Shown here piece after piece: positions 9,025-47,565 of a stretch of 64,000 nucleotides of DNA (positions are counted from its first letter, which is position 1; every line of letters begins with the position of its first letter). The notes beneath the pieces were generated by a model. The model was not told the origin of the DNA. It ran no database searches and worked only from the letters and a program-made list of their open reading frames with translations. The stretch spans positions 699,194-763,193 of the forward strand of contig CM026432.1 of assembly GCA_014871385.1 (NCBI GenBank), read 5' to 3'. Position numbers and translations under genes: made by a program. Source of the DNA: Ceratodon purpureus (taxonomy: Eukaryota; Streptophyta; Bryopsida; Pseudoditrichales; Ditrichaceae).

Positions 9025-9041
9025 CACTAGTAGAAATCCTG
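9025..9041 (+). repeat. CACTA left terminal inverted repeat
   Basis: CACTAGTAGAAATCCTG, identical over 17 bases to the reverse complement of 47549-47565. The CACTAGTAGAAA start is typical of plant CACTA ends. Confidence 0.95.
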
Positions 9042-9962
9042 GAATCAGTGACATGTTTAGTGACTACATTATGAGTCATTCTGTACAAATGTGAAAAAAA
9101 AGGACACGGAATATTCATGTACATATGGACGAGTCCTTCTTCTGTCCGCGTTGTTTTGGACTCGTTTTACCAACGCAGTAAAACGCTTCCCCCGGATCGA
9201 CTGTATGTCATGCCTGTTCAGTGTGCGATGATTTCAATATCTTCCCCATACTCATATGCCATCAACGTTTCAGCTCGAATAACGTAATAGTCATGCTGTC
9301 TACATTAGAAACATTGATTGCATCTTCGTAATCGCTGTAAAATCTACGAACTTCAATCCATTTGATCTTGTTCGGTAGCACAAATGTCGGCTTCAAGGAG
9401 CCACACGCGCACACACGCCCCGTTCTCGTTGGTCCATTGAATTTTGAATTCAAACATCAATCTTGTCTTCTCCAATAAGTGTCGGACATGTGTTAATCAT
9501 TTCAGTGGCACCGGCAATGTAGAGAAGACTGAGCGTCGTAGTACAGTGGCATCCGTTGGCATCTTGGTACACGTGGCTCTCTAGAACTGGATCATTAATT
9601 TCACATAATAAGCAAATTTATCGAAAATCGCCGATGATATTGAAATAAATCCCAAAATAGGGTTACAGCATTCAGCGACGGGACATTATCTCCCGCTGCG
9701 TAGTTGTATTCTCGCTATATCCTGGACACGCATTTCTCTGATTCAACAGAGGAACTGCTTAAGATAATATACCATGACTCCCGCTACGGATACCTAGGTT
9801 TTATAGGTCATTAAACCTATACACTACATTGGAAGTGTTGAGTAGAAAAAATGATATACAGCGACTAATACTCTCCGTCCATCAACCATCCACAGCGGGA
9901 TATACATGGTAGTTTACACTAGAGTTTTTATAATAAAATACTGCCTAGAAGTGAAATGTCGC
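9042..9962. other. Left subterminal region of the CACTA element
   Basis: No convincing gene. A 63-codon minus frame (9453-9262) is possible but unsupported. The motif CAGTAAA followed by C-rich bases occurs near 9176. Similar CAGTAA motifs occur two or three times in the right subterminal region (about 47371-47455), so they could be transposase-binding repeats. This is weak. Confidence 0.35.
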
Positions 9963-12900
9963 TTACTGGCGTAGAAAAACCAGTTCTTTGAGCCATAAGA
10001 CACTCGATCCAAGGGCGTCGCTCAGGTTTGCTTGATCTGCTTGCTCGACGGGCACCATGAGGGGGAAGTCGACAATTACCTCTTCCAAGTTCACCCGCAG
10101 GTACTGCGACGGAATTGGGCGGTTGTGGAACATTCCCTCACCACCGACGCTCAAAACTGTCCCTGCACCCACTCGTAGCAACAGATCGAGATTGTCCGCT
10201 AGCCATACCTTATCCCCAGGTCCGATCTGTATCATACTTTAAACTCAGTGAATGATAACTTGAGTTATTTTGAAACTCAAACTTAGAAATAGCGGATAAT
10301 AATTTGCAATGAATTGTGAATCGCATTTCATCGCATATATGGTCCACACTGTTATCCATGTTGTTCTATATTCATTAGATTAACGAGTCATGAAGGTGAT
10401 TTAATATCTCAACCATGCACAATTTCTTATTTAAAAATGAAAGAGGTTCATGACTATTGAAATGTAATCAAAAAAATTAAGCGCAAATCGTGTGCATGGG
10501 ACTGGTAGTCGTTACCTTTTTCAAAGATTTCTCCTGGTTTACTGAATCTTTGTATTCCGATCCCTGCATCATGACCCAGTCATAAGTACTTGAAATCACA
10601 TAACCTAGGAATTTCCTATACATGTGAAAGTAAAGACATGTTTTACTTCATTGAACAATGGGATGAATAGAGGAGATGTAACTCTGTACGCGGTTGTACA
10701 GTAACTTACAACGTTGCATAATGAAACCATTACCATACATGGTGCTTGTTCCTTGCTATTATATCTGAATTTGAAGGGTCCCAGGTTGTAATATTTACCA
10801 AATGTTTATACTCATCTAGTCTCCACCACCTCTTCCTACATAGTAAACCTAAGTTCCTTTTTGATTAATCACCAAATACAATCGATTTAACATGTTTAAT
10901 GAACTCTCTCCATGACGACCACGTAGTGTAATTTCATAAAAATAAAAATACATACCTGTACTCCTGTTGTTTGTTCATTAACTGTTGTTTCCTTGCAAGT
11001 ATTCTGAGCAATGCCATAGTAAGTGTCAGTTCCTCAACTGAAAGGAAAAAAGATCCGGAATACAAAGTTTCACTCGCAGTAGCTACGCTGTTATCCAGAA
11101 CAATATACAAGAGTTTAATATGTAAATCAAGTATTACCAATTCTCAGATAATTATGTAGAAATGGGTTCACTGCATCATACATATCTAATATATTTGAAC
11201 TTTGACATTTTTCAATTACATCGTCAGTCGATCACATTTACAATTATTCCAATTACTCAGCTTCCTGTAATTTTTTTTTGTCTATTTAATACGCATCCAA
11301 TCCAGGTCGTCTCTATTATGAACAAATGTACACATAGTATGTAGTCCAGAGTTACATTTGGACCTATGTTTGTGGAAATCCATAACTGTCTTGGGGCAGA
11401 AGACTATTACCTTTGCATGAGTACTGTCTCCCTCTCTCCTAGAGGATTTGATAACCCTCTCAACCACGCGTTTCTGCGAACGCACGGGATCACCTATTAT
11501 TATCCCAGTAGCAAGATAATTCTGTATGCTTTACGACTACCTCACGATTGTTACACGGTTGTTATAAATGCACATAAAAACTTGCATATCTAAAATCAAA
11601 TTACCCGTATTAGAAATGCACAAGTACGATGGACTTCATATATGACGTTTGTCTTAAGTCAGACGGTTATTCACCCAAAACACATGATACATCGTACTTC
11701 AGATCCTCTGTTGCATCAATAACCGAATCAATACATCTTACTTACTGAAATCTCATGAATCTCCATGTTCATATTATATTTTTAATATAATAAAAAGGGG
11801 ACAGGTTCGATCGTCGTTGTGATGAACAAACAAAGACAGTGGACCTTGTCAATACATACATGCATCGAACCTTTATAGAATATCATACATTTTTTAAGTG
11901 CAGGTGTCGATTACCTTTACTTTGTTCACGCCTACGTTTGGTTTGGAACTTGAAATAACCCTGACAACCTCGTGTCTCTGAGATTCCATGCAAAACCAAG
12001 TTAGTAATACAGAAGACAACATGTTATGTTTATTTGAAGCCTACCTCACAATCTAAAGTGTCCATCTCCAAAAAATCATAAATGGAATTTTGCACTCTAA
12101 GAAAATTTCTCCGTTATTATCATAGCAGTAATACATGTAACGTCCAATATTCCATATGTCGCTAGTTATCCGGTTAACCCCATATAGTGTTCTCCTATCA
12201 GAAACCATAAACCTACATTTGTCCTCATATTTGGGACATGCACTTCCTAGAAACAACAACTACTGAGACTACAACTTCAGAATTGATGAGCATACAAGTT
12301 CCTAGTCCACTCTGAGAGACATCACTGCAAATTTAATTGATAAGAAACTGAAATGACTTGTACAGAAAAGTATGTGCAATAGTCATTTGGTTTTGTTTAC
12401 CTCTTCACAACGTCTTATCTCATTGACTGAAGACTTCAATCTATCGTCTTTTCGACGTTCCTCCTCATCTGATGACTTACATACTTCACTCCACCATTTT
12501 TCGGTTGTGCCGGGTGCTCCCCGACTACTTTCCCCTTCAATGAAGACAACATTGTCTTCCCTCGATTTATCTATTGAGGGGGGCTTCAGCGATTGCTCGG
12601 GTTCCTTACCTCTTCTATCGTCATTACATGTTAGAGTACTGAGCACATTCTGCATCATACTTTGTAGATCATCCAGCCGCCTGTTGGTTTCGATTTGGTT
12701 GCGCTCCATTGCTGAAAGCCGGACTGCATTTTTTTTTTCCATCTCCTACAATACATATCAAAAAGTCAAGTAATATTCTGTGACTGCTAATATCTACATA
12801 CTTGCAATAACATATTGTTTTTAAAACACCAGCGCATACAAAAATATGAACAAAATAAAATAAAAAATTTCCTATAGAACCTAACAACAGCATTAGCAGA

Positions 12901-15322
12901 TGTAGGAAGAGTTAAGTGCCAGAAATTGAGTCTCCTGTGTATCACCTAACTTGCCCTTGTCGTCATTACGGCTACCACACTTTACAAAAAGACTCCTCTA
13001 CTTATTTCTGAGGAGATGTTGAAAACTGAAGTGCGACACTAAGCACTGCCCATAATCTCATACAACAACCACGTTTTTAATCTCATACAAAAATAAAACT
13101 TGTACTATGTTGCGTTTATCAAATCCTACTACGGTAATCAATCGCGGTAATATATCATATTGACCAATGTATACAAATTAAGTAAACGGTGGCCTACGAG
13201 GGGTTCCATACTGCGGTGCCTATAACAAACCTCATTCACCGGATTTTCCATAGTAGTCCGTACGTCCTTAGTGAGATCGGTCATTCCGTTGTTGGTTTCA
13301 CGCACTTGTTTCTGGCGTGGGAATATAATTCAGTGCAGGTGCACAGTTTATGTTAGTGCTGAATAACACCAAACAATAACGTAGAAATTAACAACAATCA
13401 GAATCCTTTCTCTGTTTATTTAATGTAACTCAAACTAAGGAAAAACAGAGTTCACCACTAAAACTCACCAGCCTAGCTTCTTTTCCGGCATAGCCATGTC
13501 TACCGACACGAGGGTTGTACAATACTTTTTTCCTCCTCTCTGTCATTTGCTCAGACTTCTCTTTATATCCTGGAGAATTCCAATACTCCCTCAAAGCATC
13601 CCACTGTTTGTCAGAATACTTGGGTGGCCCCTTAGACTTATGACCATGCACTCTTCTTGCCCTTTCCCTATCCCGACGTAGCCAGGTTTTTATCATTCTA
13701 TCGAAGGACAACTGCGTGACTTCGTGGTCCATAAATTCGAACATCCCCGTTAAGGTATCCCGAAGCATGTCTCTAGACATTTCATTCTGATCTTCATATT
13801 TAATAATACTCAAGTCCAAAAATTGAGGCGTCAGGTCGCGAACACTCTCCTGCCACTTCAAGTGCCCGGTACAACCACTATCAATCAATCCAGACGCTCT
13901 TACTTGCACAACATGGGGTTTGATACCTGCTGTTTCTCTTCGCCTTGCTTCATCGTCTTCTTCTTTCTTTTTTGCCCTTCTAATCATTTTTTTCAAAGAC
14001 TCCGCCTTAATTGGCATAGGAGAAGACGGACCTCCTTCACTTAACTTTTGGGGTAACTGACTATGGGGTTCGCCCGTGTTCAAAACAACATTCGAGTAAG
14101 GGAACCGCCATTCCGGGGGGAGACATACCTGAGAGAACCCACCCTGCACATTATACGTGCTTGTCCCCAATTGATTATTGGCGACAGGCACCCACGTCCA
14201 CCATGGAGGGGCTTCGTTAGGGTTTGCATAAGGTGTGGGAATTGCGTTTCCGCCTCCGGATGTGCCCCAGCTCTTATAACGGGGTCTGCCAACGTCTTCA
14301 TTAGAGTCATTCGGGCGACCTTGAAGACGTGGACTACCCTGCGACGGTGATCCTTCATTGTTCCTCCTATTCCGACGAGGGGGGGACCGTGGCTGTATGT
14401 TTTCAAACCTTCCCGAAGATGAAGATGTTGAATTCCCGCTACCACTGCCATCTGAAATGTGAGAGACACAGTAATTACATATCGTGTCCTACAACAATAC
14501 TAAATTTACTCACAGGCATCTGCTTCCCTAGCATTAAATTATGTTACAGTGGGGATTATATCACTGTTATTCTAAATCAGTAATGGATTAAAAACATATA
14601 GTAGTAGCATTATATGGTTACTAGTGGTACATAGATACACCTTTGTGAGTGCTATTGTACAAAGAAATATGCACAGTTTCCGACAATGGAGATCTAAAAA
14701 AATAAAGTGACACAACAAGATGGGAACCATTTGCTCAAAAATAATTAGTGAACATCACCTGGAACATTATGCTCAACTGGGTCTTCAAGAACACGTTCTG
14801 TCCTCGACGGCGAGTCCCCATACTGGACTTGGGTCCCTGTATTTGTAACACCGTCGGGAGCACCTGATTTATGTCGCTCACTACGCCTCAGCGGTATGTT
14901 TTCGTGGTCGCGTTGCCGCTTCCTCGACTTCTTCGAAATCAATTTTGGTAAACGATTTCTACAACACATAAACAACACATTTCAGCGACGTAACATACAA
15001 CCTCTGCCCAGACTACAGGATACGTCCTGCGTCTCATCCCAATCTTGTACACCTTGAAAACCTAGCACATCAAATCTGAGCCATCAATTTCGACACGTGT
15101 CTTCGATCCATCAAGTACTGGTTTCCAGATAATAGGGTTAAACAGTACAAGCGCAACTGACAACTCATTCGCGGCATCCTGGACCGGCTGGAAGTAAGCC
15201 CTGTTTTGTGCCATGGTTGCTTCCCTGAAAAGCTCATACTCATTATTCTCGTTGCTCGTATCTGTATCTTCATGATCTCTCCCACCGTCACTACTGCCCT
15301 CTGAAACAGAGTTACGAGACAT
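9963..15322 (-). CDS. En/Spm ORF1-type protein (Transposase_24/TnpA-like), multi-exon
   Basis: This is probably the accessory or regulatory protein of the CACTA element. Exons supported by splice consensus and mostly matching phase are: 15322 downwards (start MSRNSVSEG, acidic, Ser-rich), 14958-14759 (basic, KKSRKRQR), 14451-13469, 13311-13231, 12745-12401, 11977-11915, 11473-11411, about 11060-10960, 10604-10516, and 10226-9963 with the stop. The 14451-13469 exon has the family hallmark YWNSPGYKEKSEQ followed by a basic run. The last exon carries a GG...HNRPIP..YLRV..V block, like the small C-terminal domain of plant En/Spm ORF1 proteins. The 12745-12401 exon is charged and probably coiled-coil. 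The join of the first exon to 14958 is unresolved, with an in-frame TAG at 15062-15064. The gene is divergent from the tnp2 gene, as usual in this superfamily. Confidence 0.75.
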
Positions 15323-16670
15323 TTAAAAGAGAACCTACTCCTGGAAACCGTAACAACAACGACGGATAATTCGTATCGAATAAGGAGTAAAAACACGTAA
15401 ATCTAGTACATTTCTCGGCATGCCAATCCAACAAGTGACTACTGATTGTGTGCTATCACAAACCCGGTGTTCGGATTCTGACCTACAAATAAAGCAGGCG
15501 CGCATGAAGTTTTGGCAGGCGGTTGCATGTGTTCCTAAACTCCTAGTCCAGTGTAGTTGCATATAGAAAGTTTTGTCTCCACTGCTTTTGAATTGCATAC
15601 ACAGGTCAAAGGTGTTCCCGTCCTTCAGTTTCGTATCATCTTCGAATGTGGTTCGTTACATACTAGGTAACAGTGGCTCAGAGGGAGAGGCTCACCCTCA
15701 ACACCAGTGGACGCACTCTTTGTTGTCACATGCAAGGAATTAGAACAGTGCAATTTTGGTGACGAACACTTCCCACATTGGAAGGGCTTGCCCAGGTATT
15801 GTACACTGTTCACCTTTCTTGATTCAGTAAAATGCCAATTAAAACTCCACACTGTGATCCAAAAACTAACTTCTTCATGATCAGCTTCCACTGGCATTTC
15901 TCAGGCATGTTACTTTCTGCAATTGTAGCTAAATGACGACGGCGGTGAAGTAGAAGCATCCACTACTCCTTCACGGTACACCTATGCTTCTGATTTGCCA
16001 ATTTGTTCCACCACTAGGGTTTAGGGTTTCTATTCAACTTATGCTTATTATGTAGTTCGTTATCATGCTCGCCACTCTCTTCCCCATGGAGTGGATTTAG
16101 TGAGATTACCGACCCGTTTTCAGTTGTACTGCCCCGCAAAACCAACTATGACATGAAACTAAGAAAGTGACAACGTATGTGTAGGATAACGTTGATCGAA
16201 AATTTGTTTGCAGACCGTGGAACATCAGGTACTCATAACTACACGTTTCTGGAGACGTGAAGTTCCGTATCGTTTTCACGAACTACAAACAAAGATTTAT
16301 AAGCCACGTGAGTTCTAAGCTAACTTCATCTCACAATCCACTTTCGCAGTTCAATTTTGAATTTTTTTATCTCGTATGTGTCAATGTATGGATTGTTAGA
16401 GATACACACCCATGTGACGCTAATATTATCAGGGACTGATTCCATTAACGTGTTCAATTTCTTTAAATTTGTATATGTTTTTTTCGACACTGCAGTCATG
16501 TGGCCCGATGCTGGACTCTACATGAACCTGCTTTTTATATATCACTATATTCACACAGTGTCTTAGGTTCTCAAACAAATTAAATCCTATTCTATACGTC
16601 GCTGTAAAATTTTAACTGATTGATTGCTGACTACGTTACCTTAGCTTAGCTTACATTTTTCTAACTCAAT
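15323..16670. promoter_or_regulatory. Divergent intergenic region between ORF1 and tnp2
   Basis: These 1.35 kb separate the starts of two genes that read away from each other and should hold both promoters. I cannot pick out a single convincing TATA box. Short open frames here look like chance. Confidence 0.4.
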
Positions 16671-19600
16671 ATGTGCTACTTCAATCGCAGAATGCAACAC
16701 CGGTTGCTTCTTACAGATACAACCAGGATAAACCTACGGGATGACAAGCTCTGGGAACGTGAAAAGCGACGGGCGACACTGTATGGGTTCCAGAGAATTG
16801 CGTGTCCTTGCAACGTGCATAAGGGGACTGGTCTACCGTTTCAGATTACTGAGATTCGAAAACATCTCATACGGTATGGTAGATCAGCGGACTGTAGGAT
16901 CTGGCGTGGACCTGACCCTGCGGATTCCTCAGATGAGGAGTGGGAAGCGGAATTCGCTTCAAGACATGCTGCTCAGATATCACGTCCCCAGCCGCGAGAC
17001 AGCGGACTCGAAGTGCGAGAAATGATACAGGATATTTATCAACAGATGGAAACTTTTTCAGCGGCCGAGGATACCATAAACTCCATAGCTATGTCGGCAT
17101 TAGAAGAGTCTGATGCAATACTAGGGATAAATGCAGATACGGGAACGCCGGAATACTTGCATACCCAGGGACAAGATGGTGACGGAAACACTGGAACAAA
17201 CAGATCTACGTCGACTTCTACAGGAGATCCAGACCACAGCACGGAACATACTGACACCGACCTCCCCCGCAGCATGGACGGAACAGACTTAGATGAGCAC
17301 GGTTTTACTCAAAATACCGGAACATGCAGCGGAGAGATACCGCAGAGAAACACTGTACATGGAGATACAGTCATGGAAGGAGGCAGAACTGTGCTCGACA
17401 CTGACAAGTTGGAAGAAGAGAGAATGAAGGATGTGCAAGCACTGGAGGATGCAATGGTAAAACTATTTGATGGTTCTAACCATTCCAAGCTGGCCGCAAC
17501 AGTGATGGTCGTAAACCTCGTTGCAACACACCCAGGTATCACAAACCAAGCCGCAGATGATATTCTCGCTACTTTTAAAACCTTACTTCCTACAGATAAC
17601 TGTATGCCAGGGTCTCTATATCATGCCAAGACGCTAACAAAACGACTAGGTTTAGATTTCCGTAATATAGACGGCTGCATTAACGGGTGCACGTTGTTTG
17701 ACTTAGAGGAAACAAAACACCTTGACAGATGTCCGAAATGCAGTGCTGGAAGGTATAGAGACATGCAGCATAGGATTAGGCCTTTGAAGGTGTTGCGACA
17801 GTTCCGTATTATTCCTAGGTTGCAGCGATTTTACAGGATCCCCGTACTTGCGAAGCTCATGCGGTGGTATAAAGAGAACCTTAGCAGTGACGGAAAAGTA
17901 AGGTACCCGGCCGATAGTAGAGCTTGGAAGAAACTAGACACAATGGACCCTCAGGTATTTGATACAGGTGGCTTCGGGATTGATGAGAGGGATGTTAGAA
18001 TGCAAATATCCTGTGACGGAATTTGTCCATTCAAGTTACATAAATCTACCTGGTCCGCATGGCCCGTGCTTGCAAGTTTTTTAAACTTGCCACCATGGCT
18101 CATAACCAAGAAATTCTTCACAATCCTGACCTTGTTAATTCCAGGGAGATCGCAAGTGCCATTTGAGCATTTTGATGTGTGGATACGACCTCTATTGGAT
18201 GAGCTTAAGGAGTTGTGGGTAGGAGTTCCTGCTTATGACATTCTCAAACCTGAAGGACAACGTGCATTTAAGTTGAGGGCTGCAGTCCTCTACACAACTC
18301 ATGATTTTCCAGGTTATGGGACTGTTAGTGGGGCAGCCCATCAAGGTTATGCTGCATGCCCACCTTGTGGTAACCAATTGAAAGGGAAATACGCCTATGA
18401 GAGTAAAAAAATGACCTACAGGGACGCAAGGCGTTGGCTCAGGCCGGATCACTTCATGCGGTCCAGTAGGTTTGACAAGTTTTTTAACGGTGAATCAGAG
18501 AGGCGATTACCACCGACAGCAAAAACAGCTGCCCAGCAACTCGAGGCTCTCCGTCTGTACCATTCTTTCCTGTCAAGGGGGAGAGATGGAAGTTCTGAAC
18601 ACACTGTTGTTCCAGAACAGGCCCACGCTGATGTGTATGATGGCACCACGGGAGATTCTGTTGGAAATACCAGACCCCCAGAGATGCATGTCCGTACAGG
18701 TGGTGCTCGTGCCAAAGCGGCACCTACTGCTAACCTCCCTGAGCGTCGCAAGAGGTCAAACACGAACATTAGGAGTACGATGACCGGTCAGCGCCATTCC
18801 GAAACAGTTGATATGGAGATGGGTATAGACGGGAGTAATGGGCAGTCTGCAACAACATCTACACGGACTAGGAAACGAAGTGGTGCCAGAGTACCTCGGC
18901 TTGAAGATCCGTCAAAAATTTATGGAATGAAGCGCAGAAGTGGGTTTTTTGACCTACCCTACTGGGAGGTAAGTGCAGTTTCCTTTGTCGCCCTGCTTAT
19001 CTAATTACAAATTCGTCCTCGTCTTCTCATCGATTTCTGCGTATATTTTGCATGCTCTTAATTAATCGTGTTTGTTTGTACTGTCTATGCTTGGATCTGC
19101 ATGGTATCAAGCCAAGTCATTGCCTTCCTCTGTTTTTGTCATACTCAGATAAACCGACAGTTGATCATGATTAGTTAGCGGTTATTTCCCTTAGTTTCGT
19201 GTCATCAATCCGGAGTAATTATTCTATGGGATTACAATGTATTGAATGATTATTCTTCTTTTTTATTTTTAATTAATGTAAAAAAAAATTATTCAATGGA
19301 ACATAACTTAATTGATTGATAAATAATCACCTGTCCAAAGAGTTCATTAATATTCTAGCAGAATTCTAGTTTGTTAAATATCGCGTTGCCTTTGGCTGGG
19401 TTTTTTTCACGAGCTATGGCTTAGTTGAGTTGTTACTGAAATTATAAAACATTCACAAATCTAATATGTTCTTGTTTAGGAGAAGTTACAATTCAACATC
19501 GTCATCCATGTGTCCATTCCTCATGTAACAGAGATGGCATCACGTCTTAATCTCATTGGGATTTCAGTATTGCGGTTGGTCATAAACTTTAACAAAAATT

Positions 19601-22600
19601 CCATCTGCGTTGCACGTGGTTAGAACATCATAAGGATTTTCAGAGTCCATTTGAAATGAATTGTAAGAGACATGGCTGACATTTCAGAGTATTCATAGTA
19701 TATTCAGTACGTAATCGAAGTACCTCGTTTAGGTTGGCACTGGAAATGAGAAAACCTAGTTAAAGTTTGCACTGAAAATGAGTATACCTAGTCCTCAAAA
19801 TCCAATTGCTTATTGGAAATCGTGTTTGTTTTATATGACAGTTATAATTGAGTATACTGAAACATCTATAACGTACAATTATAATCCAGTCCTCTCTGGT
19901 ATTTGGTAAGGGCAAATTTCTCAAACAACCGACACACTAATATGATTACCACAGTTACGCTTCTGTCGATGGTGTCTGCTAAGTTATGCTACACTCTTCT
20001 TATTAACTATTAAGCGTGGTTTCAATAATAGGTACAATTTAACCATTTCTCCGATTTCGTATGTCCGTTATTATACTACATGTGTGCATTGGAATCACTT
20101 GAGTCTCGTACAGCGTCGTTGAATGTTATTAAACTGTACACTGTGGAAATAATAAAATCTACGCAGTCGATTACTTATGATCGTATTATAATTTCTGGGG
20201 TTGTGGTATTCATGGTCTGGGATGGCATATTGGTTTCTTAATTGTAATTGGTAAAGTGAATGACTGATGGCGGGGGACTGGTTTCCTAACATTCTTTAGT
20301 TTCCAGGATTAGTCAGTAGCAAACGCAGGAATAACATTTACTGTGATTGGTCGAAATAATATGTAATTTTCGATAGGACAAGGGATGACCGCATTTGTAA
20401 TGGATTTGACACAGTATTATTTACCATTCATTACAGAAATATTTAGGTCGTCCTAGAATTAAAAGCATAGTGTCATTTAATTTTTTGCAAGCTCTCATTT
20501 CAATACTTTCGATGTTGCATGAAGTCCAGGGTTGTTGAAAGTGCTAAGTAACAGTTGGTGGCCAATGAATCTACTGTCGAGAAAGGTCTGCTTTGTTAAA
20601 TTACGCTGTAACATGTAAGCCCGTGTATTCAGTGAACAATAATGGAGCCTATTTAGCCTTTCGAATCTGCTTATTTCAGGTTATGACTGTCCATCCTTGG
20701 CTTCGAGTTTACCAAATCGATTTTTACAATTGATAACTTTGCATGTCCGGTATGATATGGTTTTAACTTATATCTCTGCATTGCACATTTGCAGCATTTA
20801 GAAATCAGGAATTCTCTTGATATCATGCATTGCGAGAAGAATCTTGCTGAGAACCTTCTCAAAACAATCTGTGGTGTAAAGGAAAAGGACAGCGTGAAAG
20901 TGAGGCGAGACATGGAGCGAGAGGGTATACGTAAACACCTTTGGATGACCAAAGACCCTAACAATTCCTCTAGAATGCTCAAACCCCTTCCTAACTATGT
21001 GCTAACTCCTAGGGAATTTAATTTATTTTGTACTAGGTTAGAGAAGTTAAAAGTACCCTCTGAATATTGCTCTGATATTGGGTCTCACATTAGGAATAAG
21101 AAGTTTGGTGCTTTGAAATCTCATGATTATCATATTCTCATGCAGACATTACTTCCCCTAGCTCTGAGAGGTCTCATGGACCAAAATACAAGGATGGCAA
21201 TAATGAGGGTTTGTAGACTTTTTAGAAGATTGTGTTGTAAGGTTTGGGACCCATTGCAGGAGGATAACTTACGAGAAGATGTAGCAGTCACCATGTGTCT
21301 CGTGGAGATGACATTCCCTCCAACATTCTTTGATATCATGTCTCATCTTCCAATGCATCTAGTGGAGGAGTTGATTATTTTGGGACCTACACAGGTACGG
21401 TGGATGTACCCTGTTGAAAGAACTATGATGACATTGAAAAACCATGTTAAAAATAGAGCGAGGCCGGAAGCTTCAATTGCACATGGATATTTAATGGATG
21501 AAACAATGGGGTTTGCAACATCGTACATGCATGGGTTTGATGTGGTAAGGCGTAGAGTTTGGGATGCGGATCCGGAAGATTGTGCAGAGTTTGAAGTTCT
21601 ACAGGGGGCGCCAGCAGATTTTATTCTAACAAGAGCACAGCGTGATAGCATCCACAAATTTGTTCTATGTAACAATACGCTTACTGCTTCATTTTACAGG
21701 TACACTAGTATACCATGGTATAGCATAGTTTTCAAGTTCCACTGTATATCTGATCATATGTGTTGTTTTATTTGTTGGACATATTGCTTTTGGCCTAATG
21801 AGAATTCAGGAGTTCCCGACTCTAAGTAATCAAGCACACCTACTTGAACGTAGATAACGATCAATTCTTCGGCCTTTCAAATTTAATTCCATGTAACCAG
21901 GATGACACTGTTAATCTCGATTACAACACATGGCAATTTTAGGGAATATGATGTGGTACCTCTGAAGTGACATAGGCAGGTCAGTGTTGAAATTTGTAGT
22001 AACAAGTACAATAGTTGAGAAATATTCCTTGTTAAGTAGTATCCTTGACCTGTTGTAGTTGGGGAAATTCTATTATGTTTGTTGGATTTGTGATTTAAAC
22101 ATTGTGATAGTTGATTTGCGCCTCTGTACGATACACCGCAGTCCACTATGCCATTGGTCGAACCGGGCCTCGGTATGTGTGAGCTACCTGTCGAAATTGT
22201 TCTCTGCATTCCGTGAATTGAAAAGTGGAATTAAAAATCCCAACATCCTCCGTTCCTTCATTTTCTAAGGCTTTTTTTTTTAAAGTTTCCACTGCGTCAT
22301 CGCTCCATCATTTGACGATTCCTTTTACAATATAGTTAGAATTAATGGTAGATTTTGTTTGTTATGGTAGAGTAGATTAACCGGTGAGGAATGTGGGGGA
22401 CATGCCTGAATAAAATTCTTGCAAATACGGAGTTAGTCGATTGCAACAGTTCTAAAATTTACTGAGCTTGTGTTGCGGTGACCTGCAGTATAAACGGTTG
22501 TTCATTATCTGTAGAGGCCACTGACATACCTCATACTGTTGTACAGGGATTGGGAAAAAGAGTGGGCGGATAGTGGGGGAGCGGTAGGGCCAGTGGAAAC

Positions 22601-27714: not shown

Positions 27715-27800
27715 CCTACATGAAACAAATTTAAAATCTTATTAAAATTAAAAACAGGATTGGAAAAGAAAAAACATTTATTATATACATTTAATTAAAC

Positions 27801-28260
27801 TTGTACGGAATCCAGGAAATCAACCCTTTGAAGAAGATAATTCAACAAATGTATTGTCTTAGGAAGTTCAAATAATATTTTTAATTTTTTAGAGAACATC
27901 AAGAATCCAACTTATCAACCTTTTTGGGAAGATAAATCACCATCTGAATTCCCTATGCCAAGTTATTTTTATTAAATTAATATTTCATAATGTAAGGAAA
28001 AACATCAGGAATCCAACTTATCAACTTTTTGAGAAGATAAGCCACCAACCGAGTTCTCCATATTATTTTAGATTTTATTAAATATGGAGTTAAATAAAAC
28101 ATCAGCAATCCAGAGAGTCAACCCTTTCGGGAAAACAATCCACCATGCGAGTTCTATAAATTTAAAATAATTATTTAAATTATTTAAAGGACATCAGGAA
28201 TCCGACTTATCAACCTTTTTAGGAAGATAAACCACCAACCGAGTCCTACAATGAATTTTA
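27801..28260. repeat. About 95-bp tandem repeats upstream of the dioxygenase gene
   Basis: Five diverged units share the pattern CATCAGGAATCC, TATCAACCTTTTT, GGAAGATAA, CCACCAACCGAGT. They start near 27801, 27897, 28003, 28100 and 28192, so the period is 92-106 bases. They lie directly 5' of the minus-strand gene starting at 27714, in its likely promoter or leader. Confidence 0.8.
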
Positions 28261-28320
28261 TTAAATTACAATGCATAAATTAGAACAAAAAAAGATTTAC
28301 ATTGCACTTAATATCTCACT

Positions 28321-28378
28321 ACATTCACATTCACATTTACATTCACATTCACATTTACATTTACATTTACATTTACAT
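28321..28378. repeat. Hexanucleotide repeat (ACATTY)n
   Basis: About ten units of ACATTC or ACATTT in a row, just beyond the tandem repeats of the dioxygenase upstream region. Confidence 0.95.
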
Positions 28379-31450: not shown

Positions 31451-34400
31451 ACAACAACATGCACTTCTGAGCAATCTCGTTGGTCTGCTGTACATCGCAA
31501 CGACGCTCAAAAACATAAAATTTGAAGGAGCCATAGAACCACTTTAAAGTACAAGGGTAAACGATGGTGAACTTACCAGTTGACACTGCCGTCCTTTACC
31601 GAACGTAAACACTGATCCTTGCTCTGTGTCCCATCCACTGTATCAATACCGCTTTGTATACCTTTCCTCCTTTTCACTTAGCAATGCTAAACCAAAATAT
31701 TCAGAGCATAGATAATATCTCTTTAGAATTTCATATTGCTCTAGGGAATGTCTAAATGCAGATTGTAGTGCATAGAACTTAAATCAAAGTCCAGAATATA
31801 TACATACATATATATATATGTATACATATACATACAAGATTTGGTCACTGAAGGGCAATTGGTGTTAGAACTGACCTCAAGGCAGGCGGAGTGAGTCAGT
31901 CCAGCAGCAACTTTCCCACCTGAATGATAAAATACAACCAAATTTAACTCAATTGTGCTGGTTGACATAGAATGCATTGATCGATTAGCTCTCTCTAAGT
32001 AGCATTTTATCGGACAATGGATTCTCCAAACGACGCGTACGGAGGTTAATTCGTGACGATGAAATTTTGCCAATACTAAGGTGTGTTACAAGTCTGTTTT
32101 TGACCTTGACATCCTGAAAGTCCTTCACTAGTCTGGGTGTAGTTCACTGCAAAGATATTACATATTACACTTTTGTGTATGTTTCTTAGTGCAACATATT
32201 ACATCTTTGAGCCACAACGATAAATGTGAAAGACCGTGTGCGTAAACTAAGGTTCTGGGCCATAAACTATGCTGGCACCATGACTTCGCCAATGAATGAG
32301 CTGCCACAACGTGGTTACATTTGAGCAAACACAGACGAGATAGCTTATCTGTCAACCTAAAACTGAACAAAGCAGACATCTATTTTCAAATACAGCAGAT
32401 ATTAGTACAGTAGCAAATCCTTTGTGAAGAACATAGACGGTCCTTACCTGAAGAATAAGAGTTGAAGTTAGAAATCCAAATGCGTTCTCTCCAAATCGAA
32501 GATGTCGAACAATAGCAACTTCCTTGAATGCTTGAGTATTATGATCTGCGCGATGTCAAAACAAGTTACACCAAACTTAGAATATTTTGCAGGAAAGAGA
32601 TTCGCTGTCATACAGCTCAATACATTTACAGTAAAATGCAAACATCCAAAAAATAGAGAAGCATTATGACCAGACCAGAAGTTTAGCATATTACGGAGCG
32701 GTGAGAATAAAACGACCTGTTCAGCAACGCAACTTCAATTAAGAAGTGGTGTTTGGTAACTGCGATCCTTCAACGGGGTTTCTACCATGTGCAAAATAAA
32801 ATTACTGAGAGCACCAACAGTGCAAGCAAACGAAAATGCACAACCATAACTTGTTCCATGCAGCTTTCACCAGAAGCAAATTCAGTACCGCCTCAGCTTG
32901 TAATCATTTCGAATCGCAATACATAGTCTACAAAGCCTAGGAAGAGATCTCACCAGATTATCTTTCTCTGCAAAAATGATGGCGCTTGTGAGCTCAGCTG
33001 CATTCCCCACAATTCGCAGATTGGTGACGCTGATGAATGACAGTGGAATTGGCCACGCCTCAGATGCACCCTGGTACCAAAACGAGAAGATTAATTAACC
33101 TAATTCAAAGATTACTCACGAATAGTCTTGCTCCCAAAATGTCTGCAGAGAGGGAACCTAAATTCAAGTTACTTCTATGGCATCAACGATAAACTTGGAC
33201 AGAATGGAATTGAAGACGGACCGAACCTTATCTATGGTAGGAGAATTCTTGTATTGGATGCTAATACCCTGAAGCATTGGATTGGCATCCCTCACCCTTC
33301 AACAGAAAAGAGAATCACATGCACAATCCTGAAGCAGCATCAAGTAAACCCCAGCTTCCCATGTTAATAAGAATCCATTCTACCTCAGTCACCGACGTCT
33401 TAAGCAGATCAAAGTTTCAACCAAGCCAGGCGTAGAATCAGAAGTTCGTTTTAATGCTACCATAGCTGTGATGGTCATCAGAGCTGAAAGTAAACGAAGA
33501 AAGAAGCTGAAACCATCCGACAAATCACACGATCATGCTTGCAAATCGCCCATCGACAGTATACATTGAAAAACAGAGTGGTTATGTACAATGCGGATGA
33601 TCCACTGAGAAAAAACGCAAACTGGTGATGATGTCGCAAATAATCCTAAAACTCGCCACAAAAGCTACCTCAGACACAGCGACAACAGCATCGAGGCAGG
33701 GCCACGAATTCCCGCAATCGTTATCAATCAGTTGAGATGCACTTGAGAGAAGCTCGAGAATGCAACGAAAGGTTAAGACAGAGGCAGTATCATTGAAGCA
33801 GAAAACCTCAAATACCATCTTCCCAAACAGAGGACAGGAGTCAATCGATGGGTCTAAGCCAGATAGAAAAACCCATAAGAGGAAATAGATCTAGAGAAGA
33901 ACCGCAGTCACAGCTAAAAAGGCTTAGAACATATCAAAAGATGAAAGAGGGTTTACATTGGTGGCAACCGGAGGACAAAGCACTTCAAATAAATTGCCTC
34001 TGAAAACGTCGCTTAAACTTGCACTTGACGGGGGGCTGTCAAACTGCAATTAACACACCGCAGACGTTTACATCTCCAAGTAATTCCGTAGAAAACAGGA
34101 CAGTCTCTGCAAGATACATCTACAAAAGAAATTGAGATAGTAACCATTTCCACGGCTTCACGAAGCATATATCCTTCCACATCAGAAGTCTAGAAATCAT
34201 TCAAACCTAGAAGAGTATCAGCATTACGTAGAAACTAACCAAGAACAATGCAGAAAGAACAACTGAACAACGGCGCTGAACGTGCGCCTTCTCTCTACGC
34301 AAGCATACAGTCCACCATTGCGTTGGTCTGCGAAGTCCCAGCACTAAGCCGGAGAACCAGAACGAACGAGCTAACAGAAACCAGAAACTCAGTAACAAGT

Positions 34401-36782: not shown

Positions 36783-36827
<45 letters not shown>

Positions 36828-36857
36828 GTATATATATATATATATATATATATATAC

Positions 36858-36925
<68 letters not shown>

Positions 36926-41293: not shown

Positions 41294-41945
41294 GTAGTAC
41301 AGACGAAGAGGGAATGGTCATGTCTTACTAGGTATGGGTTCGAGATATATATCTTTCGCTCATTGTCAATGCGGGCAATAAGTACAGAGTATAAGAACTG
41401 ACAATTTCTAACATAGGTAGACGTTGTCCTCCTTGGTTCTCTTTCATCGAACTAGAGACCGTGTTTCTTGTCTGTTCTTGAAAAATATGGCTGACAAGGA
41501 ATGGCATAGTTCGCATGAGAAACAGGGGGGTGGGGTAAATGATGCCACAACTGGCATTATTGTAGAAGAATGTTCTAATCGAGTATTAGATTCGGTGAAT
41601 CCAGATGAGGCGAACTTGAGTAGAGCTGTTCCGGCACCTGGACCTTCGGACGATTTACAGAACCAAGGTGATGAGTCACATCTTACACTGATCCCTTGGT
41701 TCGCAGAAAGGTATACACCCCCTGTAGCACGACGTGGTATCAGTATTCCTCCGGAAGGCACTTAATTGACACTAAATACCCTCCAAAGTAAACCACTCCG
41801 TGTTCGTTCCCACGAAGACCTATAGTTTTCTCCCTTTTAGATTTTAACGGAAATCACCACCCGTGTCCGACCGTACACCGTCTTACAGACGGTTGGACAA
41901 ATCCGGTAGTTTTTGCCTCGTTCCTATTTTCCGGCTTTTTAGACT

Positions 41946-42032
41946 AGTGGCCGGTTCCCACTGATCCGTCTATCCTTTCAAGTGGCTGGATTTTCCACCG
42001 TCCCGTGACTTATAGTGGCTGGACACCCCACT
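41946..42032. repeat. Three short stem-loops with AGTGG...CCACT arms
   Basis: AGTGG...CCCACT at 41946-41962, AGTGG...CCAC at 41981-41998 and AGTGG...CCACT at 42014-42032, spaced 35 and 33 bases. They lie downstream of the minus-strand ORF, near the left edge of the GC-rich insertion. Confidence 0.6.
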
Positions 42033-42779
42033 GTTCCTATCTACCACCCGGGGAGTGGAGTAATAATCCTTCCGTACGGCTATGGACCGGTCCGGATAAC
42101 TACTCAGTACCGGTTATTGATACGGAGATCATACTACAATGACATCACCTTACGGCTGCACGGTATTCTACCATACTATCTTCCTTCCGGATTGGTTCGC
42201 AGTAGGGCATCCGGCTTTTATCCCATCTACAGGAAGCGACCGGTCCGTTTCCGGATCCCGGTGTACACACGGCTCTCCGTGTCCTTGAGACTACCAGCCC
42301 TGCTGCAATACGTCCCTCCTTCCCTACGGACTCCTTCCGGGACTGGAAACCGTCAACACTCGACGCTTGACACCTCCCCAGTCTCTCCGGGCGCTCTCCT
42401 GACCTTCCTACTGTTCAACACTCCTCCGGAACACTACTGAAGACAATAGTACCACAAACCATACGGCAACGGACCCGTCAGTAGCCGGTTGACACAACAA
42501 ATCCAAAAGTATATTCTCAATTGCAACAACAAAACGGCGTACAAAAACAAGGCCCCGGCCTTGGAAAAACGTCTAACTTAAATACTAAAACCTATCGGTT
42601 CCCAAAGCGACCAAGTGGTCCACCGAGATCCAGAAATTCCGGATCTTGGATCCGGGAATCCCGGACCGGTGGCCGCCTTCTATTCCTAGTTACTGCCGCT
42701 ATCTATCCGGATTGGCAGCCGGGTGCACTGGAGCCCCATCGTTAGTCGCTGCCATTTTATCCGGTCCTTATCCTAAACC

Positions 42780-44645
42780 CTACTCCTTGTGCTTATCGAG
42801 CCGGGGACTGTGCCGGGTTCCGTCCAACCGTTCCTTCTTCTGTACCCGCTTCAGTTTCTTCAACGGGGGGTCTTCTTCCGGAGCCGCAGATGCTGACGGT
42901 TCGCTGGACTTCCGGGATCGGTCTACTTGAACTGCCGGGGATGGAGATCGTGCCGCCACCGGAACTGCGCTGAGATCCACCTGGAGCGTTTCCGGAGATC
43001 CCTGTACCGGTATAAAATCTCCCGGTGGTGGTCTCTGGTCCGGTCCCAAAGGAATGTTTCCGGGGTTAACAGTCTCGACTCCATCCAAGTTGGGTAGAGT
43101 GTGCAGACTGCTCAAGTTGTCCGGAATAGGATCCTCCAGCGGGTGTCCTATCTCCTGTTGGGCGGGCCGGATGGCCGACCGTATCGGAGAGGCTGGAGGT
43201 GGCATCGGTGCCGGTTCCCTGGTTGGGGACGGTGGTCTGGGATCCTCTTGATTTGCCGGTGGCCCTGATGACGGACCGGCCTCTGCGTAACCGAGGACTT
43301 CCACCAGGTTCTTCATCATCGTCCATGTGTCCCTCATCACCTGCGTCCGGTCGTGCATGAACTTTATAATATTCTTCATAGTCGGATCCGGTTGACGGGT
43401 CAGGAAAGCCTGGTAAACGGCGCACTGATTGGCCACATCTACCGGAAGAGCTAAAGTAGCCTTGATCTCGGCGACCGACCGGATGGCCTCGACTGACCGG
43501 TCACGGGCGTCATTGAAATCCTTCCGGGCATCACGCACCTCCTCCTCGAGCTTCCGATTCGTCTCCCGGTACTTCGCCAGCCGGTCCATGTGCTTCTCCT
43601 GGAGACCGGCCAAGTCCCGGTGCTTGCGAAGAATGCTCAGGCAATCCTCCAACCGGTCCGAACCCGTAAGGATCATTACCTCCCTAGCCAACCGGCCCTC
43701 CGCCTTCCTAGTCGACTGTAAGAACCGGGCATATGTCGTTGCCTGCTCCGATAGGTTAACTAAGTCCTGGTACGGATCTCCGGTGTGCTCCGGTGGTCCG
43801 GTGGGCTGTTGGATCTCCGTGTTCAGGGTTCGCTTGGCCGGTGCGGGAGTCCGAGGTGATCCGGATGGCTGTCCCTTTTCCGGGCTAGGACGGGGTCTCT
43901 TAGCCGGCGTGGGGGAGACCTCAATAACATCATCCTCGTCGTCCTGGTCGGACACTTCCTCCGGCTCAGCGAACTGCTGATAGCTTAAGAGCTCATCGTA
44001 CTCCCGGACCTCTTCAGCACTCAACAGCCCCTTAGTACGGTAGAGGTGAATGAGGAAAGACGGAAGGCAGGTGGCCTGCTTCTTGGTCTTCCGGAGATTG
44101 GCCACCTGTCGGTCGACTATCGTCTTCATCATGACCCCCCAGTCCACCGTGAATTCACCGATCATGGCCCCAATGAAAACGGACGCCCACTTGTTGGTGA
44201 TCCGTTTGGGCTTTTCCGGATGGAAAATAGGGTTCATAAACCCTACTACTCTCCGGGCCTCCGGATCTGCAATGTCATCCAGCCCCCATCCTTCTCTCGG
44301 GTCTCCGGTCCCCTTGAGATACTGGTGTACGAAGTCCCGGGGCTCCGGCGTCGAGACCTCGCCGGAGTTCTTGAAACCATACGTCTCCCTCCAGAGTTGT
44401 GCCGTCCACTTATCCGGCTCTCCCCGGATGGTTCCTCGATTCTCGGGATTCTTGACGAGGATCTCCTGGGCCGGAAGGGCAAGCTTCCAACCCCATGCCT
44501 TGTCCAGTAGGACCTCACAACCCATAGACTCTAAGGCGGTCCGGAGGAGCTCCTTCTCCTTCTCGCCGGCCGGTATCAACGGCATTACCCGTTGTACCCT
44601 GAACGACTGTCCTTCCGCCGCCGGTTCCTTCCCTTTCCTACCCAT
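42780..44645 (-). CDS. 621-residue coiled-coil protein of the GC-rich element
   Basis: One uninterrupted frame from ATG at 44645. Residues about 20-220 form a folded-looking N-terminal domain (RVMPLIPAGEKEKELLRTAL, then FVHQYLKGTGDPREGW, then TVDWGVMMKTIVDRQVANLR), ending before an acidic run (DQDDEDDVIEV). The middle (about 290-420) is a charged, probable coiled coil. The C-terminal third is Pro/Ser-rich and ends basic. The layout recalls the proteins that large non-autonomous plant retroelements carry (the putative plant transposon protein type), but I cannot confirm the family. No catalytic motif is visible. GC-rich codons set it apart from every neighbour. A TATA box lies about 200 bases upstream. 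Confidence 0.65.
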   Translation of the reverse strand: MGRKGKEPAAEGQSFRVQRVMPLIPAGEKEKELLRTALESMGCEVLLDKAWGWKLALPAQEILVKNPENRGTIRGEPDKWTAQLWRETYGFKNSGEVSTPEPRDFVHQYLKGTGDPREGWGLDDIADPEARRVVGFMNPIFHPEKPKRITNKWASVFIGAMIGEFTVDWGVMMKTIVDRQVANLRKTKKQATCLPSFLIHLYRTKGLLSAEEVREYDELLSYQQFAEPEEVSDQDDEDDVIEVSPTPAKRPRPSPEKGQPSGSPRTPAPAKRTLNTEIQQPTGPPEHTGDPYQDLVNLSEQATTYARFLQSTRKAEGRLAREVMILTGSDRLEDCLSILRKHRDLAGLQEKHMDRLAKYRETNRKLEEEVRDARKDFNDARDRSVEAIRSVAEIKATLALPVDVANQCAVYQAFLTRQPDPTMKNIIKFMHDRTQVMRDTWTMMKNLVEVLGYAEAGPSSGPPANQEDPRPPSPTREPAPMPPPASPIRSAIRPAQQEIGHPLEDPIPDNLSSLHTLPNLDGVETVNPGNIPLGPDQRPPPGDFIPVQGSPETLQVDLSAVPVAARSPSPAVQVDRSRKSSEPSASAAPEEDPPLKKLKRVQKKERLDGTRHSPRLDKHKE

Positions 44646-44845
44646 TCTGCTAAGTCCTCCTCTCCGTCACTCCGGTAACACCTGCACGCACGATCCTCAC
44701 CACAATCTCTCGCCTAACGGAAACACTTTCGTCTCACCGTCTCTCTCCTACCGTATAACCCTAACTGCGCCCTCCGCCGTAGAACGCAAGGACCCGTCGT
44801 GCCACAAAATGACAAAGAGAAAGGAAGAGCATGGCGGTTCTTCCT

Positions 44846-44854
44846 CCTTTTATA
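44846..44854 (-). promoter_or_regulatory. TATA box for the 621-residue ORF
   Basis: TATAAAAGG on minus, about 200 bases before the ATG at 44645, in otherwise GC-rich sequence. Confidence 0.6.
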
Positions 44855-45701
44855 CCTGCCCTCGCGCCCACCCGTTCGTAGCTCATCATGACGGACGGTC
44901 GTAGCCCCTCATCATTGGACGGTCGCGACCGGCGGCGTTTTAATGGTTGCAGCCATTATCCCCGTGTGCGTTGTACCTTTTGGTGGTTATCCTTAAGTCT
45001 GCCGGGTCAAGGCTCTGTCATATGGACTGCACCCGTCTCTCCTCCACCGCAGACGACCGGATCTCACCCGGCTGGCCCTCCGGACCCTTATTTATTCAGC
45101 CGACCGGCTTAACCGGTTGTTTTACTTAGAGGCTTAGTACTTCCGTATTTCTAACATAAAATTTTAAATTTTTTTATCATTTCCTACCGGAATTAGTATT
45201 CCGGTGTGTCAACCGTGGAAATCACTTTCCACACCCCCCCCTGGATGGCAGGAGCGACGTCGTAAGGCTAGGAGAGCTGAACGAGAGAAACTACTCGCAC
45301 AGAAGGACCCCCCACATTTACCTGGTACGAGATGATTTTAATTCTTCGCTTATACATCTAAGATATGGTTTTACTCGAAGTGGAGTAGACTGAATATATG
45401 AAGATGGTCACAATCTAGACATTTGTTTCTTTGGAGATTGTAATAGGACCGTCGTCTAACCCGCTCGCGTTGTATCATGTAAGCAGTTGTGGGGCAGGCG
45501 GATTTAACACCACCGATAAGGAGTGAAGTTGGGAATGAGTATGACAACACAAAAGAGGACGTCGGTTCGTCGTCTGTAGTTGACAAAGTTTCGGAACCGG
45601 AAGTAATGGGGACGGAAGGTGAAGAGCAGGGGAAGAAGACCGCCTCTAAGTTATGGATACCCATTTTACGTGGAAAGTTTTTGAAGAGAAGGAAACTTTG
45701 A

Positions 45702-47548
45702 GCAGGGATACAGCATCACTCAGAAACTATTACACCGAGCCGGTAAATTATCCAAGTCCAGGTTCCTTCCAAATAATGAAGTCCTTTTTACAGAACTAGT
45801 AATTCATACACTAGGTTCTTTTCTCCAGATACTGATGTTATGTCGGAAGTGGTTTATCCTACAATGGAAATACCCAATCATTTGATTCAGTAAGGGTGGG
45901 GGGGGGGGTGAGGAGAAACGCTCTGGCTTTTCATGGTACATGAGAGTTTGTTAGAAACTCCGTTGGTCAGAAACTCCGTATCAGATGGGGTTATTAGACA
46001 ACAACTGACATGTAAATATCCTGTATTCATTATATATGTTTTGCAGGGAATGTGGTGGATGATGGAGAACGATAAAACAGTGATAATTTCTAGCATCTCA
46101 TAGTTTGTATAGCTTCTGGATTTCTGTTATGTAGACAGAGGCGGGGAAGATGTATTCTATGTTCTTCATACGTCATGAATCAGTTGAAGTTGAACAATTT
46201 TATTAAACGTGCCAGTAATCCCTGTTTTTTACTGTACGATTTTTAATAAAATATAATGTTTGTATCCTCTCCCGTTCTTATATTCTAAAATTTAGTTCTG
46301 TCTTCAAATAAACTGCGATTTATTCCTCAGTTTAGTTTATTAGATTTTCAATGATGAGCGTAATTCAACAGTATTTTGGAGGTTCTTTACTCATAAATGT
46401 AACTTTGCGTGTTTTCTGCTCTGAATTCTAACGGACCGTTTTGGTTGTTCCAAAACTTTGCTAATCTGTAACGTTTTCTAGACAAAGGACATAACGGATC
46501 ACTGAACGCAGTACATGTCTCTGAATGAACTTTTTAATTGAAATCGCAGGGATCATTTCAGAACCTGTGATCTCCCGTAATCCAGGCATTTCATTTACTT
46601 AATTCATTTATCAGAACTATGACACTCAGTAAATGGTTGCACAAAGATTTCAGGATTCATTGGAAGAGTAACAGCTGAGAGACATGGGCAATTTAATTCT
46701 TCTTTCTCTATTCACATGTCAGGTGATACAAAGGGCGTAGTGGGATATGCAATAAGTCGTTACTTTTTTGAAAGAGGAAGGGGTAAAATAAGCGGAGAAA
46801 TACAGCTATGTATTGATAGAGGTGATTGAGCGACCTGAGAAGTTGATAGGAAATAAATGCCGTCCAAAATGTAAGAGAGGACAGTGATGTACATGACACC
46901 AACGAACAAATCCTCACATGGGCGTTCCAAGAAATTTGTCTGATTTAAAGACAACGTTGTGAACATGATCATGTTCTCAAGGTTCTAAATGATGGAAATC
47001 ATATACAGCAGGAAATGAGTGTCCTATCAATAATACGGTGTCATCTACATAAGAGTGTCGGTGCCGATTAACGTCAAATAAACGTAGAGTACGAAGTGAT
47101 GAATCTAAACTAGGGAACAATTAAGGCAGGCAGTACATTAGGTACTCGGAGATATCAGAATCCTATGTACAGAAATTTCCATTCTTCATTAAGGCGGGCC
47201 TGTCAAAGCTGAATTCAATCTTCTAATTTCAAACACTTCACGAAATGTACCCTCGGCATTCAGAGGTCGTAGATCGCAAGGAAACGCATGGCTCGTACGG
47301 AACTATGAAATGTAACGATTATCGGAGATCGGAATCTTATTTACACTCAACGCACATGCGAGCTCCCCAGTAAATTCGAGTAAAGCCTCCGATCCATGGA
47401 CTATACACCCAGTAAACTCCAACTGCAACGACCGCTTGACACGACACTGCAGTAAGGTCCGCGTATTTCTCGAAACATTGCAGACATTTCTCTTGACTCT
47501 AAAGACAAGAACCGGACATCCTGTCATTTACGAGGACACACCATAGGA
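45702..47548. other. Right subterminal region of the CACTA element
   Basis: No gene. CAGTAA motifs at about 47371, 47411 and 47450 are possible subterminal transposase sites. Confidence 0.4.
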
Positions 47549-47565
47549 CAGGATTTCTACTAGTG
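47549..47565 (-). repeat. CACTA right terminal inverted repeat
   Basis: Reverse complement CACTAGTAGAAATCCTG, identical to the left end over 17 bases. It is followed at once by TCA (47566-47568), the target duplication. Confidence 0.95.

Follow-up and report, generated by a model that had tools for sequence, protein, structure and literature searches.

Why would a plant transposon of 38.5 kb carry, besides what it needs for transposition, a gene that resembles enzymes altering methylated DNA? The question is raised by a 64-kb stretch of the genome of the moss Ceratodon purpureus (the window, whose sequence contains no N), in which a complete CACTA/EnSpm transposon is inserted into a 0.74-kb repeat (Table 1). 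We think it rather probable, partly by inference, that this element bears a selected accessory CMD1-like gene which would loosen its silencing by 5-methylcytosine; for the oxygenase gene taken by itself, an accessory anti-silencing role is the most likely reading of the sequence.

Table 1. Features of the transposon, its cargo and its insertion site (positions in the window)
Feature	Position	Strand	Evidence
Intact 0.74-kb element with ATAG 4-bp duplication (empty site)	7353..8089	+	Self-comparison, alignment
Split 0.74-kb element, one half (outer duplication GTCA, 8559-8562)	8563..9024	-	Alignment
Target-site duplication TCA, left	9022..9024	.	Read in sequence
Whole CACTA/EnSpm element, 38,541 bp	9025..47565	+	Terminal inverted repeats and duplications
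Left 17-bp terminal inverted repeat, CACTAGTAGAAATCCTG	9025..9041	+	Sequence comparison of ends
Possible TnpA-like second transposition gene, in divergent orientation to tnp2	13430..14488	-	Pfam PF03004 E 0.0018, below cut-off
tnp2-type transposase (Transposase_21), 779-aa open frame	16665..19004	+	Pfam PF02992 E 1.5e-55; 99% copy at C6:92155812
Probable further tnp2 part, DUF4218	20756..21829	+	Pfam PF13960 E 1.9e-33
Probable further tnp2 part, DUF4216	22515..23363	+	Pfam PF13952 E 6.3e-7, 30.3 bits against cut-off 30.6
Putative C2H2-like finger and TET/JBP-CMD1-like oxygenase gene	26224..27714	-	Family-profile match to CMD1, E 7.2e-11; PF12851 under cut-off (E 9.9e-5)
Degenerate repeats (offsets ~100-300 bp) directly upstream of oxygenase gene	27809..28268	.	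Self-comparison
Nucleotidyltransferase / non-canonical poly(A) polymerase-like gene fragments	30198..31595	-	PF22600 E 0.0027, PF01909 E 0.0016, below cut-off
GC-rich insertion of ~3.5 kb with a 628-aa minus-strand open frame; not in the C6 copy; ends approximate	41723..45231	.	Copy comparison
Right 17-bp terminal inverted repeat, identical to left	47549..47565	-	Sequence comparison of ends
Target-site duplication TCA, right	47566..47568	.	Read in sequence
Split 0.74-kb element, other half (outer duplication GTCA, 47852-47855)	47569..47851	-	Alignment

The identical inverted ends, the TCA duplication and the base-exact borders proposed in the initial annotation could all be read directly at 9025 and 47565. 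The left end is CACTAGTAGAAATCCTG followed by GAATC and the right end, reverse-complemented, is CACTAGTAGAAATCCTG followed by TCCTA, the 17 bases being identical and the sequences divergent beyond them; CACTA termini, duplication and a tnp2 gene together confirm the assignment to this class. The two halves of the interrupted 0.74-kb element do sum to its full length, as had been claimed: rejoined they make 745 bp, inverted relative to the 737-bp intact copy, to which they are identical at 722 positions, with 8 columns gapped (97.96% identity without gaps), in agreement with the role of that copy as the empty site. An origin of the halves from different elements is answered by the GTCA duplication flanking both of them, because of which they can be assigned to a single 0.74-kb element. 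In the 362-Mb genome the 17-mer, with at most one mismatch, has 131 + 125 matches against 4 + 6 for a reversed control pattern, so that such termini are above chance; another end pattern tried initially as the terminus, CACTACTAGAAAAATTT, gave zero matches.

The search of the genome for other copies with the same ends yielded a second copy on C6 (left end C6:92148172, right end C6:92331930), the sole other full match at 100% over 400 bp of each end, with a GAA duplication and a tnp2 at 99%. Furthermore, among the elements with related ends, five that are contiguous have lengths of 38.5, 39.4, 53.2, 32.6 and 51.3 kb, each flanked by a matching 3-bp duplication, and the duplications at five related end pairs are TTA, GTG, CCT, TAG and GAA, the window element having TCA. 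Since these five elements span 32.6-53.2 kb, a length of 38.5 kb is ordinary for this genome, and the statement that CACTA elements of such size are rare does not apply to C. purpureus.

Judging from its domains, the tnp2 of the element is of the plant type. Of the two transposition genes announced as readable, tnp2 is clear, while of the second there is only a weak hit to Transposase_24, at 18.9 bits with the cut-off at 28.7. Likewise, of the cargo estimated at about 20 kb, some 3.5 kb is the insertion missing from the second copy; the 628-aa frame at 42780-44666, considered as a part of the element, was discarded because it sits in this insertion. A TET/JBP/CMD1-like gene within the cargo had been missed.

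This gene is composed of three exons (27714-26987, 26862-26603 and 26501-26224) separated by GT-AG introns and encodes 421 aa plus a stop. It resembles enzymes that alter methylated DNA, with C2H2-like fingers and a putative catalytic domain of TET/JBP type, CMD1-like. The finger motifs were assigned by eye, the Pfam matches being below cut-offs and in relatives only (P0023, E 0.047; P0025, E 0.01). With the Pfam Tet_JBP domain the window protein scores 22.1 bits, under the 34.9-bit cut-off, and its relative L009 has E 1.4e-8, with 35.9 bits in the genome search and 34.5 in the protein scan. In searches of the PDB with family profiles, the closest solved structure is that of algal CMD1, at E 3.5e-9 and 7.2e-11; with the first profile the next match is TET2, at E 0.67, and with the second TET is absent among the 8 matches up to E 10. 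The window protein alone reaches CMD1 at E 0.042 only. Protein databases returned one match for the window protein and two for that of L009, all of them unnamed proteins.

The gene has moved with the element, because the second copy, bounded by a different duplication (GAA), carries the same gene. Twenty copies were examined across the genome; the coding sequence is free of indels in 19 and intact over the three exons in 12. For the 19 other copies, dN/dS was computed relative to the window gene; it lies at 0.10-0.23 in 18 of them and at 0.37 in one, and there is a synonymous excess in comparison with three copies that do not belong to the element pair (p 2e-6, 5e-6 and 6e-5; four comparisons tested). 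By these substitution counts, the protein sequence of the family is kept by selection.

Where this selection was exerted is the point at which the main rival enters. CACTA elements pick up adjacent DNA, and the oxygenase gene could be a passenger captured from a more numerous TET-bearing family, the low dN/dS reflecting selection there and not in CACTA. We regard this as somewhat unlikely, yet it has arguments on its side: 14 of the 20 copies belong to a single tight group, with 97.4-98.9% identity to L021, and 12 of these 14 have, by position, within a few kb a 300-bp block that is absent from the segment shared by the window. At the places inspected, the L021 group lies outside this CACTA lineage, for which reason selection may have acted mainly in that group; the presence of gene fragments in the CACTA cargo and the broken state of the diverged copies L019, L020 and L035 point in the same direction. 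Against the passenger reading, the frame is kept in two CACTA copies with different duplications, between which 5 synonymous changes stand against 2 non-synonymous ones (p only 0.02). A second CACTA lineage has its own, different TET-like gene, open in two duplication-bounded elements (C3:11026035-11077333 with TAG and C6:69204078-69236660 with CCT, tnp2 61% in each). Moreover, at other copies the polymerase-like fragment that adjoins the oxygenase gene is broken by stops and changes of frame: its matches there come in pieces that fall in several frames, and at C6:92.34, C1:24.04 and C6:108.79 Mb at least one of the matched pieces contains a stop. Two observations weigh against an accessory role of the gene. 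Among the matches listed, two of six related elements are without a TET-like match. Across the genome, the nearness of tnp2 and TET-like loci is only weakly above chance (3/58 within 20 kb against a mean of 0.77 at random, p 0.04; 4/58 within 35 kb against a mean of 1.45 at random, p 0.056), because TET-like loci are so common, 127 having been typed.

If the gene is, as we prefer, an accessory of the transposon, the enzyme would target 5-methylcytosine within the DNA of the element itself, either by oxidation or by a CMD1-like glyceryl transfer, and its C2H2-like fingers may guide it there. Methylation-based silencing would in this way be loosened, and the element would thereby be transcribed and moved more readily. 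CpG depletion along the window, taken as a proxy for methylation, was uninformative.

The nature of the substrate opens a second alternative, quite improbable to our eyes, namely that a TET/JBP-fold oxygenase serves the element otherwise, by acting on something other than 5-methylcytosine in DNA (thymine, RNA or protein). As described for the algal enzyme of Chlamydomonas, CMD1 uses vitamin C to modify 5-methylcytosine, its Asp350 helping to read the 5mC base and its Trp358 blocking 2-OG (PMC7854593). In the moss family, H312 and D314 of the HxD...H iron triad are kept in 20/20 copies and H367 in 19/20; D317 and W325, the equivalents of Asp350 and Trp358, are found in 20/20 and are invariant in alignments A1 and A3. 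A candidate equivalent of Arg244, chosen by eye upstream, has a spacing of 77 residues in the window protein and 92 in L009, against 101. The best match is an enzyme of 5mC whose base-reading residue has an equivalent in every copy, which argues against another substrate. In favor of one stand the distance in sequence from the characterised enzymes and the 2-OG anchor: the three Arg after the second His in L009 are K, T and S in the window type, where the anchor is not recognisable. A similar reservation is voiced in the discussion of fungal types by Kojima (2025, PMC12730594).

That we face an ordinary large CACTA with meaningless filler and an accidental oxygenase similarity is barely credible, weak as the single-sequence scores are, in view of the family-profile match to one specific enzyme and of a spliced frame so often intact, with low dN/dS.

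Plant CACTA/EnSpm elements, including Pack-CACTA, share with this one the termini, the 3-bp duplication, a tnp2 with DUF4218/DUF4216 and internal gene fragments; what differs here is the size and the intact accessory gene of putative DNA-modifying type. Enlarged EnSpm elements are also described in algae, with 16-20 kb in Chondrus (PMC6431247) and up to 15.2 kb in Ectocarpus (PMC12477816), that is, about half of 38.5 kb or less. The nearest parallel is that of the fungal TET-positive DNA transposons, some of them EnSpm with 3-bp duplications, reported to carry a TET/JBP gene (Kojima 2025, PMC12730594); here the host is a plant, the tnp2 is plant-type and the catalytic domain is nearest to CMD1 in the PDB. 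In the literature searched, no case of a TET-bearing transposon in plants was found. With CMD1 the moss proteins share HxD...H, D at H+5, W at H+13 and a detectable sequence similarity, although CMD1 is presented as an algal enzyme and not as a transposon gene (PMC7854593), whereas the moss proteins are transposon-borne and have N-terminal C2H2-like fingers. A transposon-encoded factor that counters silencing is likewise known from VANDAL elements of Arabidopsis, whose VANC are described as sequence-specific anti-silencing proteins (PMC5735166, PMC10398659), the present candidate being a putative oxygenase.

Plants are reported to remove 5-methylcytosine by ROS1/DME-type glycosylases (PMC11065753). 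A selected, transposon-borne TET/CMD1-like gene would, if true, represent a second route beside them, owned by a parasite, and would mean that transposons came to be armed with TET genes in plants as they did in fungi. A bolder proposal, which we hold to be unlikely, is that a land-plant transposon encodes for itself an enzyme of CMD1 type that would use vitamin C to convert the 5-methylcytosine of its DNA into 5-glyceryl-methylcytosine, and so evades methylation-based silencing, such genes having been taken up by several unrelated mobile families, as in fungi. To our knowledge, this mark has been reported so far from Chlamydomonas alone, and the gene offers a direct test for 5gmC or oxidised 5mC in land plants.

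As to the remaining cargo, the polymerase-like fragments also have a match at C3:4090781 (84%), and an Rfam scan of the window gave nothing at the gathering score. A dispersed 5.75-kb block, considered as a nested copy that would contain the oxygenase gene, was rejected, the window sharing only 25663-28428 and not the block ends. No transposase was recognised, by eye, among the frames of the dispersed copy at C2:8.49 Mb, a copy flanked by inverted repeats that are at least 1.9 kb long and extend into an assembly gap.

The oxygenase gene carried by the CACTA element has three exons separated by GT-AG introns and encodes 421 aa; the start of the protein (MADKKRG) is basic, with C2H2-like finger motifs recognized by eye, and its C-terminal domain contains SPF...HTDEGD...W...H. 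The Pfam Tet_JBP model matches it under the cut-off (E 9.9e-5) and matches L009, a relative elsewhere in the genome, at E 1.4e-8. Against PDB chains, profiles from two alignments of relatives point to CMD1, the Chlamydomonas 5mC enzyme: the first gives CMD1 an E of 3.5e-9, with TET2 second at 0.67, and the second gives CMD1 7.2e-11, with TET in none of eight hits up to E 10. Single-sequence searches for CMD1 are weaker than the profiles (0.042 for the window protein, 1.5e-4 for L009).

The catalytic residues are CMD1-like. According to the structural study (PMC7854593), CMD1 binds iron through H345, D347 and H397, D350 participates in 5mC reading, and W358 sits where TET has its 2-oxoglutarate-holding arginine. 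Matched by spacing, the counterparts H312, D314, D317 (H+5) and W325 (H+13) are kept in 20/20 copies and H367 in 19/20; D at H+5 and W at H+13 are also invariant among the aligned relatives. TET2 has N at H+5 in the printed profile alignment, and W at H+13 is taken as a CMD1 mark from the structural statement of PMC7854593, the residue comparison with TET being confined to H+5. Degenerate repeats upstream of the gene (27809-28268), possibly regulatory or binding sites, are matched at its other copies too.

The protein family is under selection. The sample consists of the 20 best loci among 137 stretches matching the window gene, which include a tandem array on C9 of a relative 63-64% identical. 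The whole frame is kept in 12 of these 20 copies, all four splice dinucleotides in 18 (exceptions L026 and L033), and the coding sequence is free of indels in 19, L036 having two single-base deletions. dN/dS against the window lies between 0.10 and 0.23 in 18 of 19 copies (L035, 0.37), and variation among the 12 intact copies affects 39 of 240 positions in the N-terminal part and 13 of 181 in the catalytic part.

The carrier has the structure of a cut-and-paste transposon. Its ends, its duplication and the split 0.74-kb repeat match the initial annotation, which lacked a 4-bp duplication, GTCA, at both outer sides of that repeat. The GTCA and TCA duplications settle the order of events: the 0.74-kb repeat arrived first and the CACTA element entered it second. 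Pieces related to the 0.74-kb element also occur near other CACTA ends (L042, L046, L052, L058). The host is a plant, as seen from the pectinesterase with a plant PMEI domain in the right flank and from TTTAGGG arrays found by a sequence search.

Features of the element and its flanks
Feature	Position	Strand	Evidence or remark
tnp2	16665-19004		Pfam search
Further tnp2 parts (probable)	20756-21829 and 22515-23363		Pfam search
TnpA-like frame, weak likeness	13430-14488		divergent from tnp2
0.74-kb element	7353-8089; 8563-9024 + 47569-47851		inverted ends around GCACAATAAAGTGTACCACAAA(A)GTGC; 4-bp duplications ATAG, GTCA
Pectinesterase with plant PMEI domain, right flank	49320-51488		PF01095 E 1.3e-53, PF04043 E 5.5e-13
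Plavaka-like transposase fragments, right flank	58782-60764	minus	PF18759 E 1.2e-6 and 0.0015 in two scans

In the genome searched (362,488,568 bases in 151 contigs, C6 alone measuring 110.5 Mb), the ends of the window's element match seven right and 18 left ends, which pair up into six elements, one of them split and five contiguous. Among the matches listed, 12 left ends and the right end C6:16178123 stay unpaired. The 3-bp flanks are equal in all six pairs (TCA, GAA, TTA, GTG, CCT, TAG), and tnp2 lies inside all five contiguous elements and near the left end of the split one. The contiguous elements measure 38,541, 39,404, 53,226, 32,583 and 51,299 bp, so that the rarity first claimed for CACTA elements this large does not hold here: five contiguous elements with equal flanks and tnp2 inside make such sizes a normal product of this lineage in this genome.

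The second copy of the element, on C6, is 100% identical to the 400-bp ends of the window's element (left C6:92148172, right C6:92331930), and its right part shows 123/17,475, 39/4,881 and 4/2,341 mismatches over aligned columns; the window's insertion at 41723-45231 is missing from it. In the assembly 184 kb separate its ends, whose relative orientation is not that of an element, and an N gap adjoins the right part. Since GAA is the outer flank at both ends, we read it as a single, mis-scaffolded insertion, the 184-kb spacing being likely a scaffolding error on a giant chromosome.

The oxygenase gene is co-mobilised with the element. Both cargo genes are shared between the window, C1:24.04 and C6:108.79, and the cargo block thus predates the two close copies. 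The second of these, a nearby nucleotidyltransferase-like fragment (30198-31595) resembling a non-canonical poly(A) polymerase gene, has matches elsewhere that are broken up over several frames; at C6:92.34, C1:24.04 and C6:108.79 one or more of the matched stretches contain a stop, the main C6:92 stretch being stop-free. C3:4090781, an 84% match, might be the parent of the fragment.

The enzyme may act on 5mC and could work on the element itself, whose mobility would gain. The closest precedent is that of Kojima (2025), who describes TET/JBP genes in eleven fungal transposon lineages, including EnSpm, and proposes an anti-silencing role without experimental validation. No report of a plant or moss transposon with a TET-like gene was found in the literature searched, partly seen and mostly outside subscription journals, and neither TET nor dioxygenase occurs in the main text of a 2026 review on plant gene capture (PMC13317346). 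PMC12458080 states that no report documents 5gmC in other species.

Who benefits from the gene calls for caution, mainly because 14 of the 20 copies belong to a single group (97.4-98.9% identity). Two members share a 5.75-kb block; a 300-bp stretch from the end of this block is found no more than a few kb away from 12 of the 14, and at eight places it also occurs as inverted pairs with a spacing of ~12-20 kb. At C2:8490100-8508600 (L069-L072), a TET-like gene is flanked by inverted repeats no shorter than 1.9 kb; the structure spans at least 16 kb, with its outer end masked by a gap, and may be another type of TET carrier.

Another TET-like gene, which reads as a single 371-aa open frame at the loci examined, sits inside the C3 element and the element at C6:69.2 Mb; compared with a third copy on C11, 18 kb from a related tnp2, these two show 94% and 95% identity. 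TET-like stretches are numerous, the L009 query finding 108. Tandem arrays of TET-like stretches lie at C9:8954178-8980007 and C2:5970400-5978820 (spacing 1,044 bp and 1,353 bp). Genome-wide, tnp2 relatives and TET-like loci co-occur only slightly more often than by chance, as estimated from 127 typed loci with exon rows and arrays merged, small contigs excluded and the lengths of C1, C8, C12 and C13 guessed.
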